Source of the DNA: Alphaproteobacteria bacterium
GTDB lineage: Bacteria > Pseudomonadota > Alphaproteobacteria > JAQWUY01
Length of the DNA stretch: 56,667 bases
Assembly (NCBI GenBank): GCA_029250225.1
Contig: JAQWUY010000022.1
Span: 1-56,667, forward strand
Direction of reading: 5' to 3'
This document shows, in pieces, positions 5,198 through 56,007 of the stretch; positions within the stretch are counted from its first letter, which is position 1, and the number at the start of each line of letters is the position of its first letter. The notes beneath the pieces are model-generated. The model saw only the letters and a program-made list of their open reading frames with translations, searched no databases and had not been told where the DNA came from. Made by a program: the position numbers and the translations under genes.

Positions 5198-6843
5198 TAT
5201 TTATCCTTTTTAAGTTCGTGCCATATAAAATCGTTACTTATAGGGTATAGTCTATCATAATCGAAATCACAACTAGTTAATTTTAAACCGACTGCTGATT
5301 GCTTTCTTTTATATTCTGCTATGTGTAACAATTTCCAAATTTTTTCTACTGTATCTTTATCAAAACCTAATTTAATAGTTTGTTTAACACTTTTTCTTTC
5401 TTCGATAAAACATTTTAATATTTCGTCTAGAATTTCATATTCCGGCAAATTATCTTGGTCAGTTTGATTTTCCCTTAATTCTGCACTCGGAGCCTTTGAT
5501 ATTATGTTCTTTGGTATTATTTCTTTATCTTTATTTCGCCATTTACATATTTTAAATATATCAGTTTTATAAATATCTTTTACAACATTAAAGCCACCAC
5601 ACATATCACCGTATAAAGTTGCATAACCAACAGCATTTTCTGATTTATTTCCTGTTGTTAAGGCTAAATAACCAAATTTATTTGATATAGACATAATAAT
5701 ATTACCACGAATTCGCGCTTGTATGTTTTCTTCTGTGGCATCTGCTTGTGTACCTTGCATTAGATTTTTAAAGCTTTTTTCAAATACATTTACCATAGGC
5801 TCAATATCTATAACTTCGTTGGTAACGCCTAGATTTTTAATTAATTCGTTTGCATCATCTAGTGAATCTTTTGATGTATATCGGCTTGGCATCATTATTG
5901 TGTGAACTTTTTCTGCTCCTAGTGCATCAACAGCTATTGTTGCGGTTATTGCACTATCTATTCCACCTGATAGACCCAAGACAATACCATTAAACCTATT
6001 TTTATCAACATATTGTTTTAATCCAAAACAACACGCTTCCCAAATTGTTGGGCAAAAATTATCTTCGTCTTCGGGTATTTCTTTATTTTCATCTGATGAT
6101 AATACACCGTTATCATAATTAATAATTGTATTTTTAGTTTTAAATTGTGGTAGTTGCATAGCTAGACTTCCATCTGGATTATATGCAAAAGAACCACCTT
6201 CATTTAATACACCATCATATGCACCGGCATCGTTCATATAAATAAATGGAATTTTTATTTTTGTTGCAAGTGATTTAACCACATTATGTCTTTTTGATAA
6301 TTTACCATAATAATAAGGAGATGCATTTATTGAAATTACTAATTCTGAATCTTGTATAATATCTATACAGTTTTGTTCGCTCCAAATATCATGGCAAATT
6401 GGCATCGATATTTTCACCCCATTTATTGTAAATGGTTTTTTTGGTAGACCTGTGTCAAATTGGCGAGAGTCAATACAAGCACTTTCATTAGCAAGTCTTC
6501 TTTTGTGTGTCATATGCACGACTTTTCCATCTATCATCACAATTGCTGAATTTAGCGGTAATTCTGTTTTTGATTTTGTTGCTGAACCTATAATAATAGC
6601 AGTTTTACTGTTTTTTGTAAGTTCTGCAATATCGTTTATTTTTTCCATACAAGCATCTATAAAGTGTTTTGATTGGAATAAATCAAAAGCATAATATCCG
6701 TGTATTGTACCTTCGGCAAACACCGCTATATCACAATTATTTTGAGTTGCATACTCATACGATTTTTTTATTGTTTCGTAATTTTTGTCAAAATTACCGA
6801 CATAAGGACTTGTTTGGCAAATAGCAATTTTTAATTTAGTCAT
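5197..6843 (-). CDS. nadE: Glutamine-dependent NAD+ synthetase
   Basis: Converts deamido-NAD+ to NAD+ using glutamine and ATP. The 548-residue protein has two domains. The N-terminal nitrilase-type glutaminase carries the catalytic triad candidates Glu44 (FAEG), Lys114 (HKRRL) and Cys150 (MPICHDIW). The C-terminal N-type ATP pyrophosphatase domain carries the P-loop SGGIDS at 292-297, and GNKSENAVGY, typical of the family, further on. Having the glutaminase domain means the cell can use glutamine rather than depend on free ammonia. Its stop overlaps the gltX start by one base and it lies 12 bases after the DAHP synthase gene, so a polycistronic message is likely. Confidence 0.96.
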   Translation of the reverse strand: MTKLKIAICQTSPYVGNFDKNYETIKKSYEYATQNNCDIAVFAEGTIHGYYAFDLFQSKHFIDACMEKINDIAELTKNSKTAIIIGSATKSKTELPLNSAIVMIDGKVVHMTHKRRLANESACIDSRQFDTGLPKKPFTINGVKISMPICHDIWSEQNCIDIIQDSELVISINASPYYYGKLSKRHNVVKSLATKIKIPFIYMNDAGAYDGVLNEGGSFAYNPDGSLAMQLPQFKTKNTIINYDNGVLSSDENKEIPEDEDNFCPTIWEACCFGLKQYVDKNRFNGIVLGLSGGIDSAITATIAVDALGAEKVHTIMMPSRYTSKDSLDDANELIKNLGVTNEVIDIEPMVNVFEKSFKNLMQGTQADATEENIQARIRGNIIMSISNKFGYLALTTGNKSENAVGYATLYGDMCGGFNVVKDIYKTDIFKICKWRNKDKEIIPKNIISKAPSAELRENQTDQDNLPEYEILDEILKCFIEERKSVKQTIKLGFDKDTVEKIWKLLHIAEYKRKQSAVGLKLTSCDFDYDRLYPISNDFIWHELKKDK

Positions 6844-8298: not shown

Positions 8299-9639
8299 TT
8301 ATGAAGGTGTACGCATAGTAACAAATTCTTCGGCGGATGTTGGGTGTATACCAATTGTGTTATCAAAGTCTGATTTTTTTAATCCAGCTTTTACAGCGAT
8401 TGCCATTCCTTGAATTATTTCGCTAGCATCATCACCAATCATATGCACACCTAGTACTTTTTGAGTATTTTTATCAACGATTAATTTTACAAATGAACGA
8501 CAATTTGACCCAGAAATTGTGTTTTTCATAGGTTTGAAATTTGATTTATAAATATCAAATTTATATCCTTGTTCAGTTGCTTGTTCTTGACTTAAACCCA
8601 CGGTTGCCATATTGGGATAGCAAAATATAGCCGTTGGAATATTTTCATAATCCATTTTCTTTGTTTTATCGCCGTAAACACGGTTTAGGAAAGTCATCGC
8701 TTCACTTAGTGCAACAGGAGTTAATTGCATTTTATCTATAACATCACCTAATGCATAAATAGATGGTATGTTTGTTTGGAAATCATCATTAACTTTAATT
8801 GCTCCGTTTCTGGTTTTAACGCCAACTTGTTGTAGGCCTAATTTATCAGTGTATGGTTTGCGACCAGTTGCATACATTACTAGTTCGGCCGAAAAATCTT
8901 TTTTATCTGTGTGGCAAATTGTTTTATTATTTTTTTTGCTAAGTTTTTTGATATCTGTATTGTAAATAATTTCAATACCTAGTTCTTGCATTTGATTACT
9001 AACAAAATCAACAGTTTCATTATCAAATTCTCTTAATATTCTATCGCCTCGTAATAATAATTTTGTTTTTGCACCTAAATTATTAAAAATACTCGCAAAT
9101 TCTACGGCTATGTATCCGCCACCTACAATAATTACTTCATTTGGCAATTTATCTAAGTAAAATGCATCAAAAGATGTTTTTGCATGCTCAATTCCACTTG
9201 TATCAGGCAAACTAGTGGTTGCACCGGCGCTAATTAATATTCGTTCTGCGGTATAGTTTTTATTATTAATACGGACTGTATTTTTGTCAACAAAAGTTGC
9301 ATATCCATTTATTATATCAACCCCTGCATTTTTTAGCATATTTTCATATACATTATTTAATCTTTTTATTTCTTTGTCTTTGTTTTTACGCAAAATTTTC
9401 CAATCAAAAGATTGATTTTTGTAATTCCAGCCATATCCTTTCGCATCTTCTAATGAGTGTGCAAAATCACCAGCATAAGTAAATAATTTCTTTGGGACAC
9501 AGCCAACATTTACACAAGTTCCCCCCATCATATTGTCTTCTACAATGGCTACTTTTAAACCTAGGTCAGATGATGCCATTCTAGAAGCCCTTACACCACC
9601 AGAACCAGCACCGATAACAAGTAAATCATAGTCGTACAT
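8299..9639 (-). CDS. gor: Glutathione-disulfide reductase
   Basis: FAD/NADPH-dependent reduction of oxidised glutathione in the cytoplasm. The 446-residue protein has the N-terminal FAD Rossmann motif GAGSGG (10-15), the redox-active disulfide pair in GGTCVNVGCVPKKL (Cys42 and Cys47), a second nucleotide-binding motif VIVGGGYIAVEF around 170, YALGDV, and the C-terminal dimer-interface segment IGIHPTSAEEF with the catalytic His. The GCVPKK and GIHPT forms favour glutathione reductase over dihydrolipoamide dehydrogenase, although trypanothione-reductase-like specificity cannot be excluded. A ribosome site AAGG precedes the ATG. It is transcribed divergently from the small ORF/pabB unit, with a 135-base spacer that holds a nested inverted repeat. 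Confidence 0.93.
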   Translation of the reverse strand: MYDYDLLVIGAGSGGVRASRMASSDLGLKVAIVEDNMMGGTCVNVGCVPKKLFTYAGDFAHSLEDAKGYGWNYKNQSFDWKILRKNKDKEIKRLNNVYENMLKNAGVDIINGYATFVDKNTVRINNKNYTAERILISAGATTSLPDTSGIEHAKTSFDAFYLDKLPNEVIIVGGGYIAVEFASIFNNLGAKTKLLLRGDRILREFDNETVDFVSNQMQELGIEIIYNTDIKKLSKKNNKTICHTDKKDFSAELVMYATGRKPYTDKLGLQQVGVKTRNGAIKVNDDFQTNIPSIYALGDVIDKMQLTPVALSEAMTFLNRVYGDKTKKMDYENIPTAIFCYPNMATVGLSQEQATEQGYKFDIYKSNFKPMKNTISGSNCRSFVKLIVDKNTQKVLGVHMIGDDASEIIQGMAIAVKAGLKKSDFDNTIGIHPTSAEEFVTMRTPS

Positions 9640-9684
9640 ATTTATTACCTTTTTTATTTAATAATTATATTAATTTATTTGCCA

Positions 9685-9766
9685 TAACTCTTTAAATTAC
9701 TTGCATACTTTATAATTTGAGAGTAATTATTATATTATATTTTGTAGTTGTTAAAGTAAAGAGTTA
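9685..9766. repeat. Nested inverted repeat in the gor / small ORF intergenic spacer
   Basis: Perfect 10-base arms TAACTCTTTA (9685-9694) and TAAAGAGTTA (9757-9766) are 62 bases apart. Inside them lies a second pair, AATTAC (9695-9700) and GTAATT (9723-9728), with the first inner arm touching the first outer arm. The repeat sits between divergent gor and the pab unit, so it could be a pair of operator half-sites or a leader structure. No clear -35/-10 pair could be fixed inside it. Confidence 0.5.
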
Positions 9767-9774
9767 AAAAAATA

Positions 9775-9870
9775 ATGGCAAGAAATAAAGAGTTTAATCA
9801 ATATTATAGTAATAAATTATTAAATAGTATTATCAAAAAAGTTTTTAATCCAGCTAAAATTTATGAATAA
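9775..9870 (+). CDS. Small ORF (31 codons) coupled to pabB, function unknown
   Basis: ATG at 9775 opens a 31-codon frame, MARNKEFNQYYSNKLLNSI and on to NPAKIYE, ending TAA at 9868-9870. The last eight bases, ATGAATAA, contain both its stop and the ATG of pabB at 9863. The same eight-base overlap joins murC-murB and murB-ddlB in this window. pabB has no visible ribosome site of its own, so translation through this ORF is a plausible way to load ribosomes on pabB. The peptide is basic, rich in Asn, Lys and Tyr, and has no signal peptide or membrane segment. I do not recognise a family. It could be a real microprotein, a pure coupling device or chance. Confidence 0.45.
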   Translation: MARNKEFNQYYSNKLLNSIIKKVFNPAKIYE

Positions 9871-11254
9871 AATTTTATATAAGGTACTTGATGATTGGAT
9901 AGATCCATCACAGGTTTTAACCTGTTTTGATGGTAGTAGCCTTTTATGCGCATTACATTCAACTTTACCAAGTGAATCTGATAATAAGATAAAAGATTTG
10001 GGGCGCTATTCTTTTATTTCTGCAAATCCTTTTGCCGTTTTTAATGCATTAAACGGAGATGTTTTTTTCAACCATAAAAAGATAAATAAACAACCTTATG
10101 ATTTAAATCCGTTTGATGTTTTAAATAAATTTATGCAAGATTATAAAATTGAAACAAATAAAGATTTGCCGCCTTTTCAAGGTGGAGCAATGGGCTATTT
10201 TTCTTATGAAATCGGTTCTTATTTAGAAAATATACCATTGAATCAAACACTATCTGATTATGATGATATGGTTATTGGTATATATGATTGGGTTGTATCA
10301 TTTGACCACAAAGAAAAAAAGGTATTTATTACAGCATGTGGTTTTAACCAAGATGCAAATAAAACAATTGATTTTATCTATAATAAAATAAAAGAAGTTA
10401 CTAATTTTGATTTAGTTCAACCAAAAAAATCTTCACAAATAATGACTGATTTTACTAAAAAAGAATATGAAAAAAGTGTAAGCAAGGTAATAGATTACAT
10501 TTACGATGGCGATATATTTCAAGCAAATATGACACAACCATTTAAAGTGCATTATGACGGGGCTAGTCCATTACAAGTGTATCAATATCTTAGTCATATT
10601 AATCCAGCTCCGTTTTCTGCATATATTGATTGTGATAATTTTGTTATCGCTTCATCATCACCCGAAAGGTTTATTGAAGTTAATTGTGCGCGGGTAGTTG
10701 AAACAAGACCTATTAAGGGAACGGCACCTAGAAGTGATGACTTAGCAAAAGATAAAAAATTTAGTGATGATTTATTAAAATCAGAAAAAGACAGAGCTGA
10801 AAATATAATGATTGTTGATTTGATGCGTAATGATTTATCACGGGTTTGTAAAGCAGGCAGTATTTCAGTGCCGAATGTTTGTGGCCTTGAAAGTTATCAA
10901 TCGGTACACCATTTGGTGAGTACTGTAAAAGGCGAATTACAAGAAGATAAAAACGCATTTGATTTATTAAAAAATTGTTTTCCGGGTGGCTCTATTACAG
11001 GGGCGCCAAAAATCCGTTCACAAGAAATTATAGCTGAACTTGAATCTTGCAACCGTGGTGTTTATTGCGGTTGTATAGGTTATATTGGTTTCGACGGTGT
11101 GATGGATACTAATATTGCAATTCGAACTATGACTTTAAAAGATAATGTTGCCTCATTTAATGCCGGCGGGGGTATTGTTAGTGACAGTAAACCTGAATCA
11201 GAATATGAAGAGACAATGATAAAAGCAGATAAAATGATTAAGGTATTCAAATGA
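9863..11254 (+). CDS. pabB: Aminodeoxychorismate synthase component I
   Basis: With PabA, converts chorismate and glutamine-derived ammonia to 4-amino-4-deoxychorismate for folate synthesis. The 463-residue chorismate-binding protein carries PIKGTAPR at about 283-290. The Lys in PIKGT is the hallmark of PabB, where anthranilate synthase TrpE has Ala (PIAGT). Other family motifs are IMIVDLMRNDLSRV, FPGGSITGAPKIR and the C-terminal FNAGGGIVSDSKPESEYEET. The N-terminal region is the usual divergent lobe. The gene overlaps pabA by four bases (ATGA) and the preceding small ORF by eight. Confusion with trpE is unlikely given the Lys and the linked pabC. Confidence 0.92.
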   Translation: MNKILYKVLDDWIDPSQVLTCFDGSSLLCALHSTLPSESDNKIKDLGRYSFISANPFAVFNALNGDVFFNHKKINKQPYDLNPFDVLNKFMQDYKIETNKDLPPFQGGAMGYFSYEIGSYLENIPLNQTLSDYDDMVIGIYDWVVSFDHKEKKVFITACGFNQDANKTIDFIYNKIKEVTNFDLVQPKKSSQIMTDFTKKEYEKSVSKVIDYIYDGDIFQANMTQPFKVHYDGASPLQVYQYLSHINPAPFSAYIDCDNFVIASSSPERFIEVNCARVVETRPIKGTAPRSDDLAKDKKFSDDLLKSEKDRAENIMIVDLMRNDLSRVCKAGSISVPNVCGLESYQSVHHLVSTVKGELQEDKNAFDLLKNCFPGGSITGAPKIRSQEIIAELESCNRGVYCGCIGYIGFDGVMDTNIAIRTMTLKDNVASFNAGGGIVSDSKPESEYEETMIKADKMIKVFK

Positions 11255-11826
11255 TATTATTAATTGATAATTATGATAGTTTTGTTTATAATCTTGCCCG
11301 TTATGCAGTTGAATACGGCCAAAACATAAAAGTATTTCGCAATGATAAAATAACAATATCAGAAATAGAAAATATTGACCCGAAAGGTATTATTTTATCA
11401 CCGGGGCCGTGCAGTCCAAATGAATCTGGAATATGTTTGGAATTAATTGAAAAATTACACAAAAAATATCCTATTCTTGGGGTGTGTTTAGGACATCAGG
11501 CAATAGGGCAGTTTTTCGGTGGTAAAGTTAATAAAGCAATTAAACCTATACACGGGAAAACTGAAAAAATTTTCCATAATGGTAATGGCTTATTTAAAGG
11601 TATTGCATCACCAACTGTTGTTACAAGATATCATTCTTTGATTGTTGATTTAGAAGATAATAACGAACTCGAAATTAATTCTAAAACTAATGATAATGAA
11701 ATAATGGCATTTCAGCACAAGATTTATAATGTATATGGGTTGCAATTTCATCCTGAATCTATAATGTCTGAACACGGTAGATTAATGATAAAGAACTTTA
11801 TTGACATTGCAAATAGTAGTAATTAA
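11251..11826 (+). CDS. pabA: Aminodeoxychorismate synthase glutamine amidotransferase component
   Basis: Class I glutamine amidotransferase that feeds ammonia to PabB. Catalytic Cys79 lies in LGVCLGHQAIG, and the His167/Glu169 pair lies in LQFHPESIMSEHG. The N-terminus ILLIDNYDSFVYNLARY and the LSPGPCSPNE segment are typical of the PabA/TrpG group, and HGKTEKIFHNGNGLFKG is the region contacting component I. In many bacteria one protein serves both PabB and TrpE, so it might be shared with tryptophan synthesis. The ATG overlaps the pabB stop by four bases. Length 191 is normal. Confidence 0.93.
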   Translation: MILLIDNYDSFVYNLARYAVEYGQNIKVFRNDKITISEIENIDPKGIILSPGPCSPNESGICLELIEKLHKKYPILGVCLGHQAIGQFFGGKVNKAIKPIHGKTEKIFHNGNGLFKGIASPTVVTRYHSLIVDLEDNNELEINSKTNDNEIMAFQHKIYNVYGLQFHPESIMSEHGRLMIKNFIDIANSSN

Positions 11827-11886: not shown

Positions 11887-12699
11887 ATGAATAAAATTTG
11901 GATAAATGGTAAAATAGTTGATGCTCAAAATGCAATATCTTCTAGTGATAGGGGATTTACATTAGGTGATGGTATTTTCGAAACTATGTATTTTGATAAT
12001 GGAAATATTGAACTATTTGAAATGCATATGATAAGATTAAAATCAACATTATCATTTTTATATATAAATATTTCTTATAGCCATAATGATTTAATTAATG
12101 CTACTAGAAAACTTTTCGAAGAAAATAAATTGTCCTGCGGTGTCGTGCGATTAACAGTAAGTCGCGGTTGTGGTAAAAGGGGCATTGCCTTTGATAACGA
12201 ATTAAAAGCAACAGTTGTTATTTCTGTATCAGTTGTCGATAGGTTACAAGCGCCAGTTAAAATTTGTACTACTAGTTATATTCGCAATGAAAAATCTCCT
12301 CTATCATCATTTAAAATGTTAAATTATACTGATTCTATAATGGCTTTTAATGATGCAAAGATGAAAGGTTTTGGCGATGCCTTAATGTTAAATGTTGAGG
12401 GTAATGTTTCTTGTACAACAACGGCTAATATATTTTTAATTAAAGGTAATAACTTAATAACTCCATCTTTGAAATCAGGCTGTTTACCAGGAATTATTCG
12501 TTCTGTTGTTTTAAATATAGCCAAGAAAAATAATTTAAATGTTGCTGAAACTGATGTTAAGATTGAACATATGGAAACCGCCGATAGTGTATTTATAACT
12601 AATAGTATAATTAGATTAAAAAAAATTATCGGGTTTGAAGACACAAACTACGATTTAGAAAATAAAGTTATGTTAAATATTGAAAAGGAATTAATATGA
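11887..12699 (+). CDS. pabC: Aminodeoxychorismate lyase (class IV PLP enzyme)
   Basis: Fold-type IV PLP protein that would release pyruvate from aminodeoxychorismate to give p-aminobenzoate. The N-terminus IWINGKIVDAQNAISSSDRGFTLGDG contains the SDRGFTLGDGIFET block of the class IV family, and the expected PLP Lys lies in SSFKMLNYTDSIMA. The C-terminal part has TTANIFLIKG and GIIRSVVLNIA. D-amino acid and branched-chain aminotransferases share the fold, so specificity is inferred mainly from pabB and pabA just upstream. 270 residues is normal. A TAAGG ribosome site precedes the ATG, and the stop overlaps the next gene by ATGA. Confidence 0.85.
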   Translation: MNKIWINGKIVDAQNAISSSDRGFTLGDGIFETMYFDNGNIELFEMHMIRLKSTLSFLYINISYSHNDLINATRKLFEENKLSCGVVRLTVSRGCGKRGIAFDNELKATVVISVSVVDRLQAPVKICTTSYIRNEKSPLSSFKMLNYTDSIMAFNDAKMKGFGDALMLNVEGNVSCTTTANIFLIKGNNLITPSLKSGCLPGIIRSVVLNIAKKNNLNVAETDVKIEHMETADSVFITNSIIRLKKIIGFEDTNYDLENKVMLNIEKELI

Positions 12700-22316: not shown

Positions 22317-22442
22317 ATGAAAGTTGCTAGTTCTCTAAAGACATTAAAAAATCGTGATAAAGATTGCCAACTAGTGCGCCGTCGTGGTCGTGTTTATGTA
22401 ATTAACAAGAAAAACCCTCGTTTTAAGGCTCGTCAAGGCTAA
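22317..22442 (+). CDS. rpmJ: 50S ribosomal protein L36
   Basis: A 41-residue basic protein reading [20 protein letters not shown] and on to NPRFKARQG. It matches the alphaproteobacterial L36 type, including the conserved [17 protein letters not shown] segment. The zinc-ribbon form has three Cys and one His; here only one Cys remains, so this is the zinc-free form typical of the class. The gene stands alone with its own promoter and a strong terminator, so it is a monocistronic ribosomal protein gene. Confidence 0.93.
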
Positions 22443-28237: not shown

Positions 28238-29140
28238 TTAATCAGTTTGTGCTTGTTCTACTAATATATTTACTAAATCTGGCATATTTATGCCAATACT
28301 TTTTGCTTGTTCCGGTACAAGTGATAATTCAGTCATACCGGGTTGGGTATTTGTTTCTAGTGTCGCAATTATTTTGTTTTTGTTGTCGTAACGAAAATCA
28401 GTTCTACTTACACCACGGCAATTTAATATTTTATGGCACTTTTGTGCAATTTTCATTAATTCATCAGCTACATTTTTATCAATATCAGCAGGGCATATAT
28501 GTTCAGTTTTACCATCTGTATATTTTGCCTCATAATCATAAACCCCACTTTTTGGCTCTAATTCGGTTACATTTAATGCTTTACCATTTATTACAGCAAC
28601 AGTTAATTCTAGTCCTGAGATATATTTTTCAACCATAATGTCACCAAAATCCCACTCTGATAAATCAGGCAGAGGGCTATTTTCAAATACAATGTGTAAA
28701 CCAACACTACTACCTTCGCAAGCCGGTTTAATTACAAAAGGTTTACCAAATGGAATTTTGTCATAATTAAAATCTTGTGATTTAAATATTATATTTTCCG
28801 CAACCGGTATGTTATTTTTTTTATACAATTCAATAGTTTTTGGCTTGTTCATTGCTAAGTTTGAAGTTTCATAACCACTGTGCGTATATGGAATATTTAG
28901 TTTGTTTAATATTTTTTGAATACCGCCATCTTCGCCAAATAATCCGTGCAGTGCATTGAAAACTAGATCAAACCCGTCTAGTTGTTTTTTAATTGTATCA
29001 AAATCAGAACTTGTTATATCAACCTTGTGGACATCATAACCAAACTGCTTTAAGGCATTCAGACAAGAATTGCCGGAATTAAGGCTTATTTCGCGTTCGT
29101 TTGAAATTCCCCCCATTAATACAGCAATTTTTTTATTCAT
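28238..29140 (-). CDS. ddlB: D-alanine--D-alanine ligase
   Basis: Makes D-Ala-D-Ala for the peptidoglycan stem. ATP-grasp protein of 300 residues starting MNKKIAVLMGGISNEREISL, with HGLFGEDGGIQKIL, KPACEGSSVGLHIV and the metal-binding ETNTQPGMTELSL near the C-terminus. I chose the ATG at 29140; an in-frame TTG at 29149 is less likely because the AAGGA ribosome site lies nine bases from the ATG. The ATG overlaps the murB stop as ATGAATAA. The product feeds MurF, encoded in the same cluster. Confidence 0.95.
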   Translation of the reverse strand: MNKKIAVLMGGISNEREISLNSGNSCLNALKQFGYDVHKVDITSSDFDTIKKQLDGFDLVFNALHGLFGEDGGIQKILNKLNIPYTHSGYETSNLAMNKPKTIELYKKNNIPVAENIIFKSQDFNYDKIPFGKPFVIKPACEGSSVGLHIVFENSPLPDLSEWDFGDIMVEKYISGLELTVAVINGKALNVTELEPKSGVYDYEAKYTDGKTEHICPADIDKNVADELMKIAQKCHKILNCRGVSRTDFRYDNKNKIIATLETNTQPGMTELSLVPEQAKSIGINMPDLVNILVEQAQTD

Positions 29141-30032
29141 ATTTTCCAATCCTTTTTATTTCCCAATTTAAATCTATTCCTAATTCAGATTTTACGGTGT
29201 TTTTTGCTAATTCTCCTAGTTGTTCTAAGTCGTATGATGTTGCTGAACCTTGATTGATTAAAAAGTTACAATGTTGTTCAGAAATCTGCGCTCCACCAAT
29301 AACTTTACCCCTTAAATTAACTTGATCAATTAATTCCCAAGCCTTGTAATTATCTGGGTTACGGAAAGTTGAACCACCAGTACGAGATTTTATTGGCTGA
29401 CTATTAGTACGAGAAATATTTATTTCTTGCATTTTTTTGTTAATTTCTTCTTTTTTACCTATTTTGCCTTGGAATGTCGCACTTGTAAATATTACATTGT
29501 TTGCATAATCACAATGACGATATGAAAAATTCATTTGTTCTTTGCTAAGTGTTAATTTGTTACCTTGATAATCAAATCCTTGTGCAGAAACAAATATATC
29601 ACTTGTTTCGTTGCCATATGCACCGGCATTCATCACTATCGCTCCGCCTATACAACCAGGTATACCGGATAAAAATTCAAATCCGCTAATATTATTATTC
29701 ATTGCTAGCTTAGCAATTTTTAAATCACTATTTCCTGCCCCTGTACTTATTGTCGTATCTTTTACACAGGTTTTATTAAAATTGTTTAAACGAATAATAA
29801 CACCATCATAACCACCATCACGAACTAGTGTATTTGACCCTAATCCCATAGGGTATATTTTAATATTTGATGGTTTGTTTTTTAGAAAATATTCTAAATC
29901 ATTTTCATCAGATGGTGAAAATACAATCCCATTACCGCCAACACGAAACCAGCATAATTTTGATAGGGGTAATATTTGTATATTTCCTTTTGTTTTAGGT
30001 AATGAATCTATTATAGTATCTATATTATTCAT
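29133..30032 (-). CDS. murB: UDP-N-acetylenolpyruvoylglucosamine reductase
   Basis: FAD/NADPH enzyme that completes UDP-MurNAc. The product begins MNNIDTIIDSLPKTKGN (299 residues from the ATG at 30032) and shows LCWFRVGGNGIVF, PMGLGSNTLVRDGGYDGVII, the FAD-site segment FEFLSGIPGCIGGAIVMNAGAYG, the proton-donor region SRTGGSTFRNP and a final Glu in KSELGIDLNWEIKRIG. This is the type I form. Longer in-frame starts exist to 30071, but the ATG at 30032 gives an eight-base ATGAATAA overlap with murC, matching other junctions in this cluster. The downstream overlap with ddlB has the same form. Confidence 0.94.
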   Translation of the reverse strand: MNNIDTIIDSLPKTKGNIQILPLSKLCWFRVGGNGIVFSPSDENDLEYFLKNKPSNIKIYPMGLGSNTLVRDGGYDGVIIRLNNFNKTCVKDTTISTGAGNSDLKIAKLAMNNNISGFEFLSGIPGCIGGAIVMNAGAYGNETSDIFVSAQGFDYQGNKLTLSKEQMNFSYRHCDYANNVIFTSATFQGKIGKKEEINKKMQEINISRTNSQPIKSRTGGSTFRNPDNYKAWELIDQVNLRGKVIGGAQISEQHCNFLINQGSATSYDLEQLGELAKNTVKSELGIDLNWEIKRIGKYE

Positions 30033-31416
30033 CGCTAATTTCATAAGCCCATTTTGTAATATCCCCAGCACCCATAAAAATTACAATATCTTCACTTTTA
30101 ACAGTTTTTGCTAGGGTAGTTTTTAAATCTTGGAAATTTTTTTGATATGATGCATTTTTATGTCCAGATGTTATAATATTTTTCGTTAAATTTTCTGAAT
30201 TAACATTATCAATAGGCTCTTCGTTTGCTGAATAAACAGGTAATATATGAACATAGTCGGCATCACCAAAACAAGTTGAGAAATCTTTGAATAAATTTTG
30301 TAAGCGAGTATATCTGTGGGGTTGCATAATAGCGTGAATTTTTCCACTTGTTGAACTGCGCCCAGCTTGTAAAGTTGCTTTTATTTCAACAGGGTGGTGA
30401 GCATAATCATCAATTACTTTTGCCCCGTTAAATGTTCCTGTATTTGTGAAACGGCGTTTTACACCCTTAAACTTTTGATAAAGTTTTTGAATTTTATTGT
30501 TTTCTATACCAACTTCCATAGCAGCAGCTATTGAGGCTAGTGTATTTTGAATATTATGTTTTCCATTAATCGGAATAAATAAATCTTTAATGTTTCCATT
30601 TTTCGTAATTACATCAAATGTAGTTCCTTTTATATCGGTTCTAATATTATCAGCTCTTACATCAGCTTTGCTGTTAAGGCCGTATGTTATTACTCTGCGG
30701 TTTTTGATTTTTAAGCGGAGTTTTTGCACCTCTTTATTATCTGTACATAAAATAGCCACCCCGTAAAAAGGTATATTCTCAACGAATTGAGAGAATGCTT
30801 TTTTCACAGAATCAAAGTCACCATAAAAATCTAGGTGTTCAGGATCAATATTACTTACAATTGCTATTGTTGCAGGTAAACGAGTAAAAGAACCGTCAGA
30901 TTCATCAGCTTCGGCAACAAGCCATTTACCTTCGCCCAATTTTGCATTAGAACCAAATTTATTAATAATCCCACCATTTATAATTGTTGGGTTTAATCCC
31001 GCTTCGCTTAGTGCATGTGCAACTAGGGAAGTTGTGGTTGTTTTCCCGTGTGTCCCAGCAATAGCAATAGACAGGCGAAGTCGCATAACTTCGGCTAGCA
31101 TTTCTGAGCGGTGAACAATAGGGATATCATTTTTTTGTGCTGATATGTATTCAGGATTATCTTCTTTAATTGCTGTTGATATAACTATGGCTTCGGCACT
31201 AGCAACATTACTTTTATTTTGCCCGATAAATATTTTTATCCCCATATTTTCAAGTCGTTTTGTTGTATCAGATTCTTTGATATCGGAGCCGGTTATTTCA
31301 TAGCCTAAGTTAAATAATATTTCTGCGATACCACTCATACCAATTCCACCAATACCAATAAAATGAAGTTTACCGATATTTACAGGCATTTGCATTGTAA
31401 TGGGTTGTCGTTTCAT
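30025..31416 (-). CDS. murC: UDP-N-acetylmuramate--L-alanine ligase
   Basis: Adds L-Ala to UDP-MurNAc. Mur ligase of 463 residues with N-terminal LHFIGIGGIGMSGIAEIL, ATP-binding AGTHGKTTTTSLVAHAL around 117-124, the central EADESDGSF, and DDYAHHPVEIKATLQA in the C-terminal domain. A methionine six codons into the frame could be an alternative start. It begins one base after murG ends and overlaps murB. Confidence 0.96.
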   Translation of the reverse strand: MKRQPITMQMPVNIGKLHFIGIGGIGMSGIAEILFNLGYEITGSDIKESDTTKRLENMGIKIFIGQNKSNVASAEAIVISTAIKEDNPEYISAQKNDIPIVHRSEMLAEVMRLRLSIAIAGTHGKTTTTSLVAHALSEAGLNPTIINGGIINKFGSNAKLGEGKWLVAEADESDGSFTRLPATIAIVSNIDPEHLDFYGDFDSVKKAFSQFVENIPFYGVAILCTDNKEVQKLRLKIKNRRVITYGLNSKADVRADNIRTDIKGTTFDVITKNGNIKDLFIPINGKHNIQNTLASIAAAMEVGIENNKIQKLYQKFKGVKRRFTNTGTFNGAKVIDDYAHHPVEIKATLQAGRSSTSGKIHAIMQPHRYTRLQNLFKDFSTCFGDADYVHILPVYSANEEPIDNVNSENLTKNIITSGHKNASYQKNFQDLKTTLAKTVKSEDIVIFMGAGDITKWAYEISDE

Positions 31417-55919: not shown

Positions 55920-56007
55920 GGTGTCGTGGCCGAGCGGTTTAAGGCGCACGCCTGGAAAGCGTGTTGGGGGCAACCCCTCGAGAGTTCGAATCTCTCCGAC
56001 ACCGCCA
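55920..56007 (+). tRNA. tRNA-Ser (anticodon GGA)
   Basis: An 88-base class II tRNA. The acceptor stem GGTGTCG pairs with CGACACC before discriminator G and an encoded CCA. The anticodon GGA is at 55954-55956 in CTGGAAA, giving Ser (UCC/UCU). The long variable arm has a GGGG/CCCC stem, and the T-loop TTCGAAT is standard. Confidence 0.97.

Follow-up and report, generated by a model that had tools for sequence, protein, structure and literature searches.

In the window, by which we mean the whole 56,667-nt stretch of DNA analysed, a 31-codon ATG open reading frame (ORF31; 9775..9870, + strand; translation MARNKEFNQYYSNKLLNSIIKKVFNPAKIYE*) was found directly ahead of a pabB gene, where it is a candidate leader minicistron. 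The nearest upstream stop codon in its frame is a TAA at 9757, and the spacer that separates it from a divergent glutathione-reductase-like gene (start at 9639, - strand) covers 9640..9774 (+ strand). This spacer presumably holds a promoter; its promoter-like sites, four against 3.7 by chance, show no excess. The octamer ATGAATAA (9863..9870, + strand) contains both the start codon of pabB (ATG at 9863) and the stop codon of ORF31 (9868-9870), the latter falling within codons 2-3 of pabB. ORF31 thus ends inside the pabB start with an overlap of 8 bases, as the original prediction had stated.

The pabB gene (9863..11254, + strand) encodes aminodeoxychorismate synthase component I. Its product scored 366.8 bits with the PabB equivalog model TIGR00553, above the cut-off of 328.4, and it scored higher with the TrpE model TIGR00564 (404.1 bits) but under that model's own cut-off of 517.7. 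A pabA/trpG-type glutamine amidotransferase gene (11251..11826, + strand) overlaps pabB by 4 bases (ATGA) and is followed by a pabC-like aminotransferase class IV gene (11887..12699, + strand), which also starts with ATGAATAA, here without overlap, and whose top NCBIfam match, aminodeoxychorismate lyase, lies under its cut-off. There is a single PabB match genome-wide (E <= 0.001), and anthranilate synthase component I was therefore not seen as a separate protein; this genome may lack tryptophan synthesis, or the pathway may share the pabB enzyme.

The assigned pabB start agrees with the N-termini of PabB proteins from members of the same class, lying about 13 residues ahead of a conserved Asp-Pro, as in locus L038 for example; in this comparison one sequence (L003) was N-terminally shortened and another (L037) was taken from an internal Met. 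Upstream in the pabB frame, no further ATG, GTG or TTG was found. Since the start matches those of the class-mates and has no alternative in frame upstream, we rejected the possibilities that the start of pabB had been placed wrongly or that an N-terminal extension lies upstream in a shifted frame.

The same octamer lies, as predicted, at the murC-murB (30025..30032, - strand) and murB-ddl (29133..29140, - strand) junctions of the window, in both cases with the stop codon of the upstream gene inside it. Coupling between the real genes at these two junctions had been called near certain, and the junction of ORF31 with pabB had been likened to them. The octamer arises because the protein begins with Met-Asn-Lys/Asn, and a start of the form ATG AAT AA always brings a stop codon into the +2 frame. 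As any open +2 frame has to end there anyway, the analogy with the mur junctions does not make coupling of ORF31 to pabB near certain. Moreover, a second in-frame ATG lies 12 bases upstream of 30032, at 30044, so that murB may overlap murC by 20 instead of 8 nt. The proposed coupling is partly supported, and the geometry permits termination-reinitiation between ORF31 and pabB.

To this geometry we give two main readings. We tentatively favour, at somewhat under an even chance, that ORF31 is a leader minicistron, incidental or selected, which hands ribosomes to pabB. Almost as likely, ORF31 arose by chance: the spacer is AT-rich, and a frame that is open in it happens to extend into pabB. On this reading any translation of ORF31 would be incidental, and pabB would start by itself through an open A/U-rich region, like other genes of this genome that have no Shine-Dalgarno (SD) sequence.

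We surveyed gene overlaps in the window and five of the 12 fetched contig pieces of the same genome, which are also the basis of the other statistics below. Genes were called as simple ORFs of at least 110 aa with the first ATG taken as the start, and the start choices are therefore approximate, murB for instance being taken at its upstream ATG and not at 30032. Among same-strand neighbours, the commonest overlap was -8 (6 pairs), followed by -1 (5) and -4 (4). This favours a leader minicistron, as does a reported survey of 2.66 million gene pairs from 1,695 species, in which -8 is the third commonest overlap and stop-to-start distances of -8 to +6 nt are read as indicative of coupling (PMC10666635); the ORF31 stop, with its 8-nt overlap, falls inside that range. 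The octamer itself is not enriched (13 copies in the window against 11.2 +/- 3.0 expected in shuffles), consistent with a chance ORF, and four of the 122 genes called in the surveyed stretches begin with it.

SD pairing was computed for the 17 bases at -20..-4 against a canonical anti-SD sequence. The genome uses SD pairing, with means of -3.68 kcal/mol for leading genes (n = 40) and -4.04 kcal/mol for overlapping genes against -1.25 kcal/mol for all ATGs. The pairing energy of pabB was +1.2 kcal/mol, bearing out the earlier statement that this gene lacks a ribosome site of its own, whereas ORF31 reached -2.4 kcal/mol, a value between those of all ATGs and of leading genes and a better context than that of pabB; murB (at 30032) and ddl gave -2.4 and -6.4 kcal/mol, respectively. 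This difference favours the leader reading. A pairing energy of +1.2 kcal/mol or above is shared by 13 of the 121 starts, pabB included, which is in keeping with a chance ORF ahead of a gene that starts by itself. Six of these 13 are leading genes, and ahead of the other five SD-less leading genes no ATG ORF of 15 aa or more overlaps the start, which counts against a leader minicistron.

In the predicted fold, the ORF31 start region is wholly unpaired. Of the 121 starts, only 26% have an ATG paired as much as that of pabB or more, which places the pabB ATG above about three quarters of them in pairing. Both features favour the leader reading. Against it, the start region of pabB, taken as a whole, is not sequestered: its unpaired fraction of 0.60 is near the median of the 121 starts, and since it is as open as the median, pabB could possibly initiate independently. 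The predicted fold has an A-U stem around the pabB ATG, but 172 of 200 shuffles fold equally well or better (z 0.99), and sequestration of the start in a hairpin was therefore rejected. Reinitiation is reported to be helped, as a rule, by an SD at the downstream start, and removal of the downstream SD lowered it in four of five E. coli pairs (PMC6728339). The missing SD of pabB is therefore no sign of efficient coupling and weighs against the leader reading.

Searches for other RNA elements at the ORF31/pabB locus revealed no unusual fold (z 0.13), no terminator-like hairpin and nothing above the gathering score in Rfam, where matches were at chance level only. The only Rfam match above the gathering score in the whole window was a tRNA gene at 55920-56004 (+ strand). 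Attenuation leader peptides of the trpL type are encoded by short ORFs before the gene of a chorismate-using enzyme, and ORF31 likewise precedes a TrpE/PabB-family gene. It differs from them in having neither a terminator-like hairpin nor an unusual structure nor Trp codons, and in running into the gene that follows. An attenuator or other RNA element after ORF31 was thus rejected.

How often an ORF of this kind would arise by chance was estimated by keeping the real pabB start fixed and generating 5000 spacers per model, counting ATG ORFs of at least 31 aa that overlap the start. When the spacer was dinucleotide-shuffled, 0.32% of the sequences had such an ORF; among order-2 Markov intergenic spacers the figure was 3.0%. 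With GTG and TTG starts allowed, these values rose to 1.3% and 6.0%, respectively. A probability of 0.3-3% for this single spacer speaks for the leader minicistron, and the lower value, obtained under the spacer's own composition, counts against chance. Yet 41 leading genes were surveyed; with a probability of 0.3-3% for each of them, chance alone should yield about 0.1 to 1.2 such ORFs, which favours the chance reading. A comparable overlapping ORF was found at three of the 41, namely ORF31, a 48-codon ORF and a 91-codon ORF. The last of these (L064, 6443-6718, + strand) has an 8-nt overlap with the next gene (start at 6711), which is preceded by a strong SD, and is probably a real small gene that falls under the 110-aa length cut-off.

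The composition of ORF31 leans coding, to which the following measures lend modest support. Its phase periodicity, scored from position-specific composition, is +2.82 in frame and negative in the other five frames, a moderately coding-like value that 41% of real 30-codon gene pieces do not exceed. The value was reached by 5.8% of 397 non-gene ORFs (25-60 aa) and by none of the 31 among them that are mostly intergenic; both results favour a leader minicistron, and the latter counts against a chance ORF. Because open frames are biased by the absence of stops, nulls conditioned on an open frame matter here, and 2.82 was reached by 8.8% of the dinucleotide shuffles that were free of stops and by 2.0% of the intergenic Markov sequences without a stop. 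Included among the 31 ORFs is one at 22317-22442 (+ strand) that we take, from its sequence, to be the 41-aa ribosomal protein bL36 gene (rpmJ). This true small gene has a periodicity of only 1.25, under that of ORF31, and the measure therefore separates genes poorly; this and the shuffles tell against the leader reading. The codon log-odds of ORF31, -0.023 per codon, falls at the 15th percentile of 122 real N-termini, which is low for a gene, and at the 81st percentile of spurious ORFs, inside their range, as a chance ORF would. It ranked fourth among the 32 intergenic ORFs, which rpmJ topped.

A further reading is that the product of ORF31 is a microprotein specific to this lineage, translated together with pabB and acting with the PabA-PabB complex. 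The coding-like periodicity of ORF31 would fit, and an excess of pairs whose products belong to the same complex is reported among genes with short overlaps (PMC10666635). Homologue searches argue against it. The ORF31 peptide had no significant match in its own genome, in a set of 58 genomes including its own, in 384 class-mates, or in phages, plasmids, PDB, PHROGs and Pfam, and its sole NCBIfam match was TIGR00288 with an E value of 0.081. The microprotein of the p-aminobenzoate unit first proposed thus found no support as a conserved protein in these collections. The best class-mate match (E 0.0056 per genome) carries an internal stop. Weak matches (E <= 0.5) occurred in 21 of 385 class genomes, the own genome included, and none of 11 stretches of 2 to 3 kb around such matches contains pabB. 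Several lie within what by eye look to be other genes, encoding uS9 (L153, L156), MiaA (L152) and AcpS (L155).

The class-mates, 385 genomes with the own one, all lie outside the order of this genome, and their closest PabB is about 50% identical. A single-protein PabB scan of wider genome contigs found no close relative, a scan of viral contigs found none either, and a scan with a PabB alignment returned at least 590 matching stretches in genome contigs, the best 80 of which are all distant. We then compared the regions upstream of 114 PabB-family loci, of which one was dropped and 113, the own locus included, had a usable start; starts were assigned by rule, and some of the loci may be TrpE rather than PabB. 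At 35 of the 113, some small ATG ORF has its end between -30 and +40 relative to the assigned start, and an 8-nt overlap also occurs at two other loci, L036 and L119. This frequency speaks for a chance ORF. None of the small upstream ORFs at the other loci resembles ORF31 when compared by eye, which further weakens the microprotein reading, and on balance we consider it improbable. The Vibrio locus L119 shares the ATGAATAAA start with pabB and has an unrelated 23-codon ORF that overlaps it by 8 nt. The PabB-family starts of L119 and of three further Vibrio loci (L128, L130 and L138) all read ATGAATAA(A/C), and in the latter three the frame that is open in L119 stops 4 nt ahead of the start. 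Judged from these Vibrio sequences, L119 is a natural example of chance overlap.

One weak class match to ORF31 (L035; E 1.1, from a genome of 70% GC) proved, when checked against Pfam and NCBIfam, to be a gene for a twin-helix HIG1 protein containing MARGGEFNRRYGNKLM. ORF31 might accordingly be a relic or an exapted piece of a HIG1-type gene with twin transmembrane helices, a reading that we regard as very unlikely. Residues 1-16 (window 9775-9822) weakly resemble the loop of these proteins, which in several members follows the pattern M-x-R-G-G-x-F-N-x-x-Y-S-N-K-L-M. Compared with a profile built from the 30 best HIG1 matches in the class, ORF31 scored 11.5 bits, with an E value of 1e-5 when counted as a single comparison. 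It led the 398 non-gene ORFs, the next of which reached 5.3, and none of 2000 shuffles scored higher than 4.4. Of 289 class genomes, 211 have a HIG1 match (E <= 0.01), but none was found up to E 10 in the own genome, and a hydrophobic frame in a different phase lies just upstream of ORF31 (9696-9764), of a kind that AT-rich DNA often gives. Against this, the family was chosen after the matches had been seen, and the E value therefore becomes about 0.25 over about 25,000 Pfam families. With hmmscan run up to E 10 with the HMMER filters on, neither Pfam HIG_1_N nor NCBIfam twin_helix was reported for ORF31. By eye, both hydrophobic helices that flank the loop are missing from ORF31, as is the R-x-R-x3-Q part present in most of the HIG1 proteins fetched. 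Of 22 hand-picked genomes from the PabB and HIG1 match lists of the class, 12 have the HIG1 gene and pabB on different contigs and 10 have them on one contig, at least 6.4 kb apart. In those 10 genomes, HIG1 shares its strand with the best PabB match, and in nine, which belong to only three families, they are 6 to 46 kb apart.

Taken as a leader minicistron, ORF31 would work as follows. Transcription would come from upstream of 9775, and ribosomes would load at the unstructured ORF31 ATG (9775), where SD pairing is weak, translate ORF31, terminate at its stop codon (9868-9870) and reinitiate at the pabB ATG (9863), which lies in the overlap and has no SD. Expression of pabB would depend on ORF31; the peptide itself would be of little importance. 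In its strongest form, a lineage-specific minicistron, perhaps derived from a lost HIG1 loop, would be the site at which ribosomes must load for the pabB-pabA-pabC operon to be translated, and initiation at ORF31 would set the rate of folate-precursor synthesis; to this version we assign the lowest probability of all.

Several known systems resemble this arrangement. In E. coli, the short ORF uof lies upstream of fur and coupled expression of the two is reported; there, regulation by the sRNA RyhB and by rare codons is reported under iron depletion (PMC11550727), whereas translation of ORF31 is a prediction. In Pseudomonas aeruginosa, the upstream ORF of pqsR is likewise positively coupled to translation of the main gene, but its ribosome site is blocked by structure until the sRNA PhrS opens it (PMC8395346), while the ORF31 start is predicted to be unstructured. 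Termination-reinitiation pairs with distances of -8, -4 or -1 nt include the same -8 nt geometry (PMC10666635), yet they usually consist of two proper genes, with an SD before the second in most groups (PMC6728339); at ORF31-pabB the first member is a 31-codon ORF without a known homologue and the second has no SD. Small ORFs with start/stop overlaps are listed in M. tuberculosis as well (PMC11133741). Judging by titles and the opening lines of abstracts, the literature found does not deal with a pabB leader peptide or translational coupling of pabB, from which we do not claim its absence from print.

Should ORF31 be a chance ORF, the ATGAATAA junction would be near automatic in AT-rich genomes wherever a Met-Asn-Lys/Asn start meets an open upstream frame. 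Should it be a leader minicistron, ORF31-pabB would, by analogy, add to the known uof-type cases uof-fur (PMC11550727) and uof-pqsR (PMC8395346) a further upstream ORF to which translation of the next gene is coupled and which thereby controls it, at the folate-pathway operon of a small AT-rich genome, and would show how a gene without an SD can be fed by an overlapping ORF.
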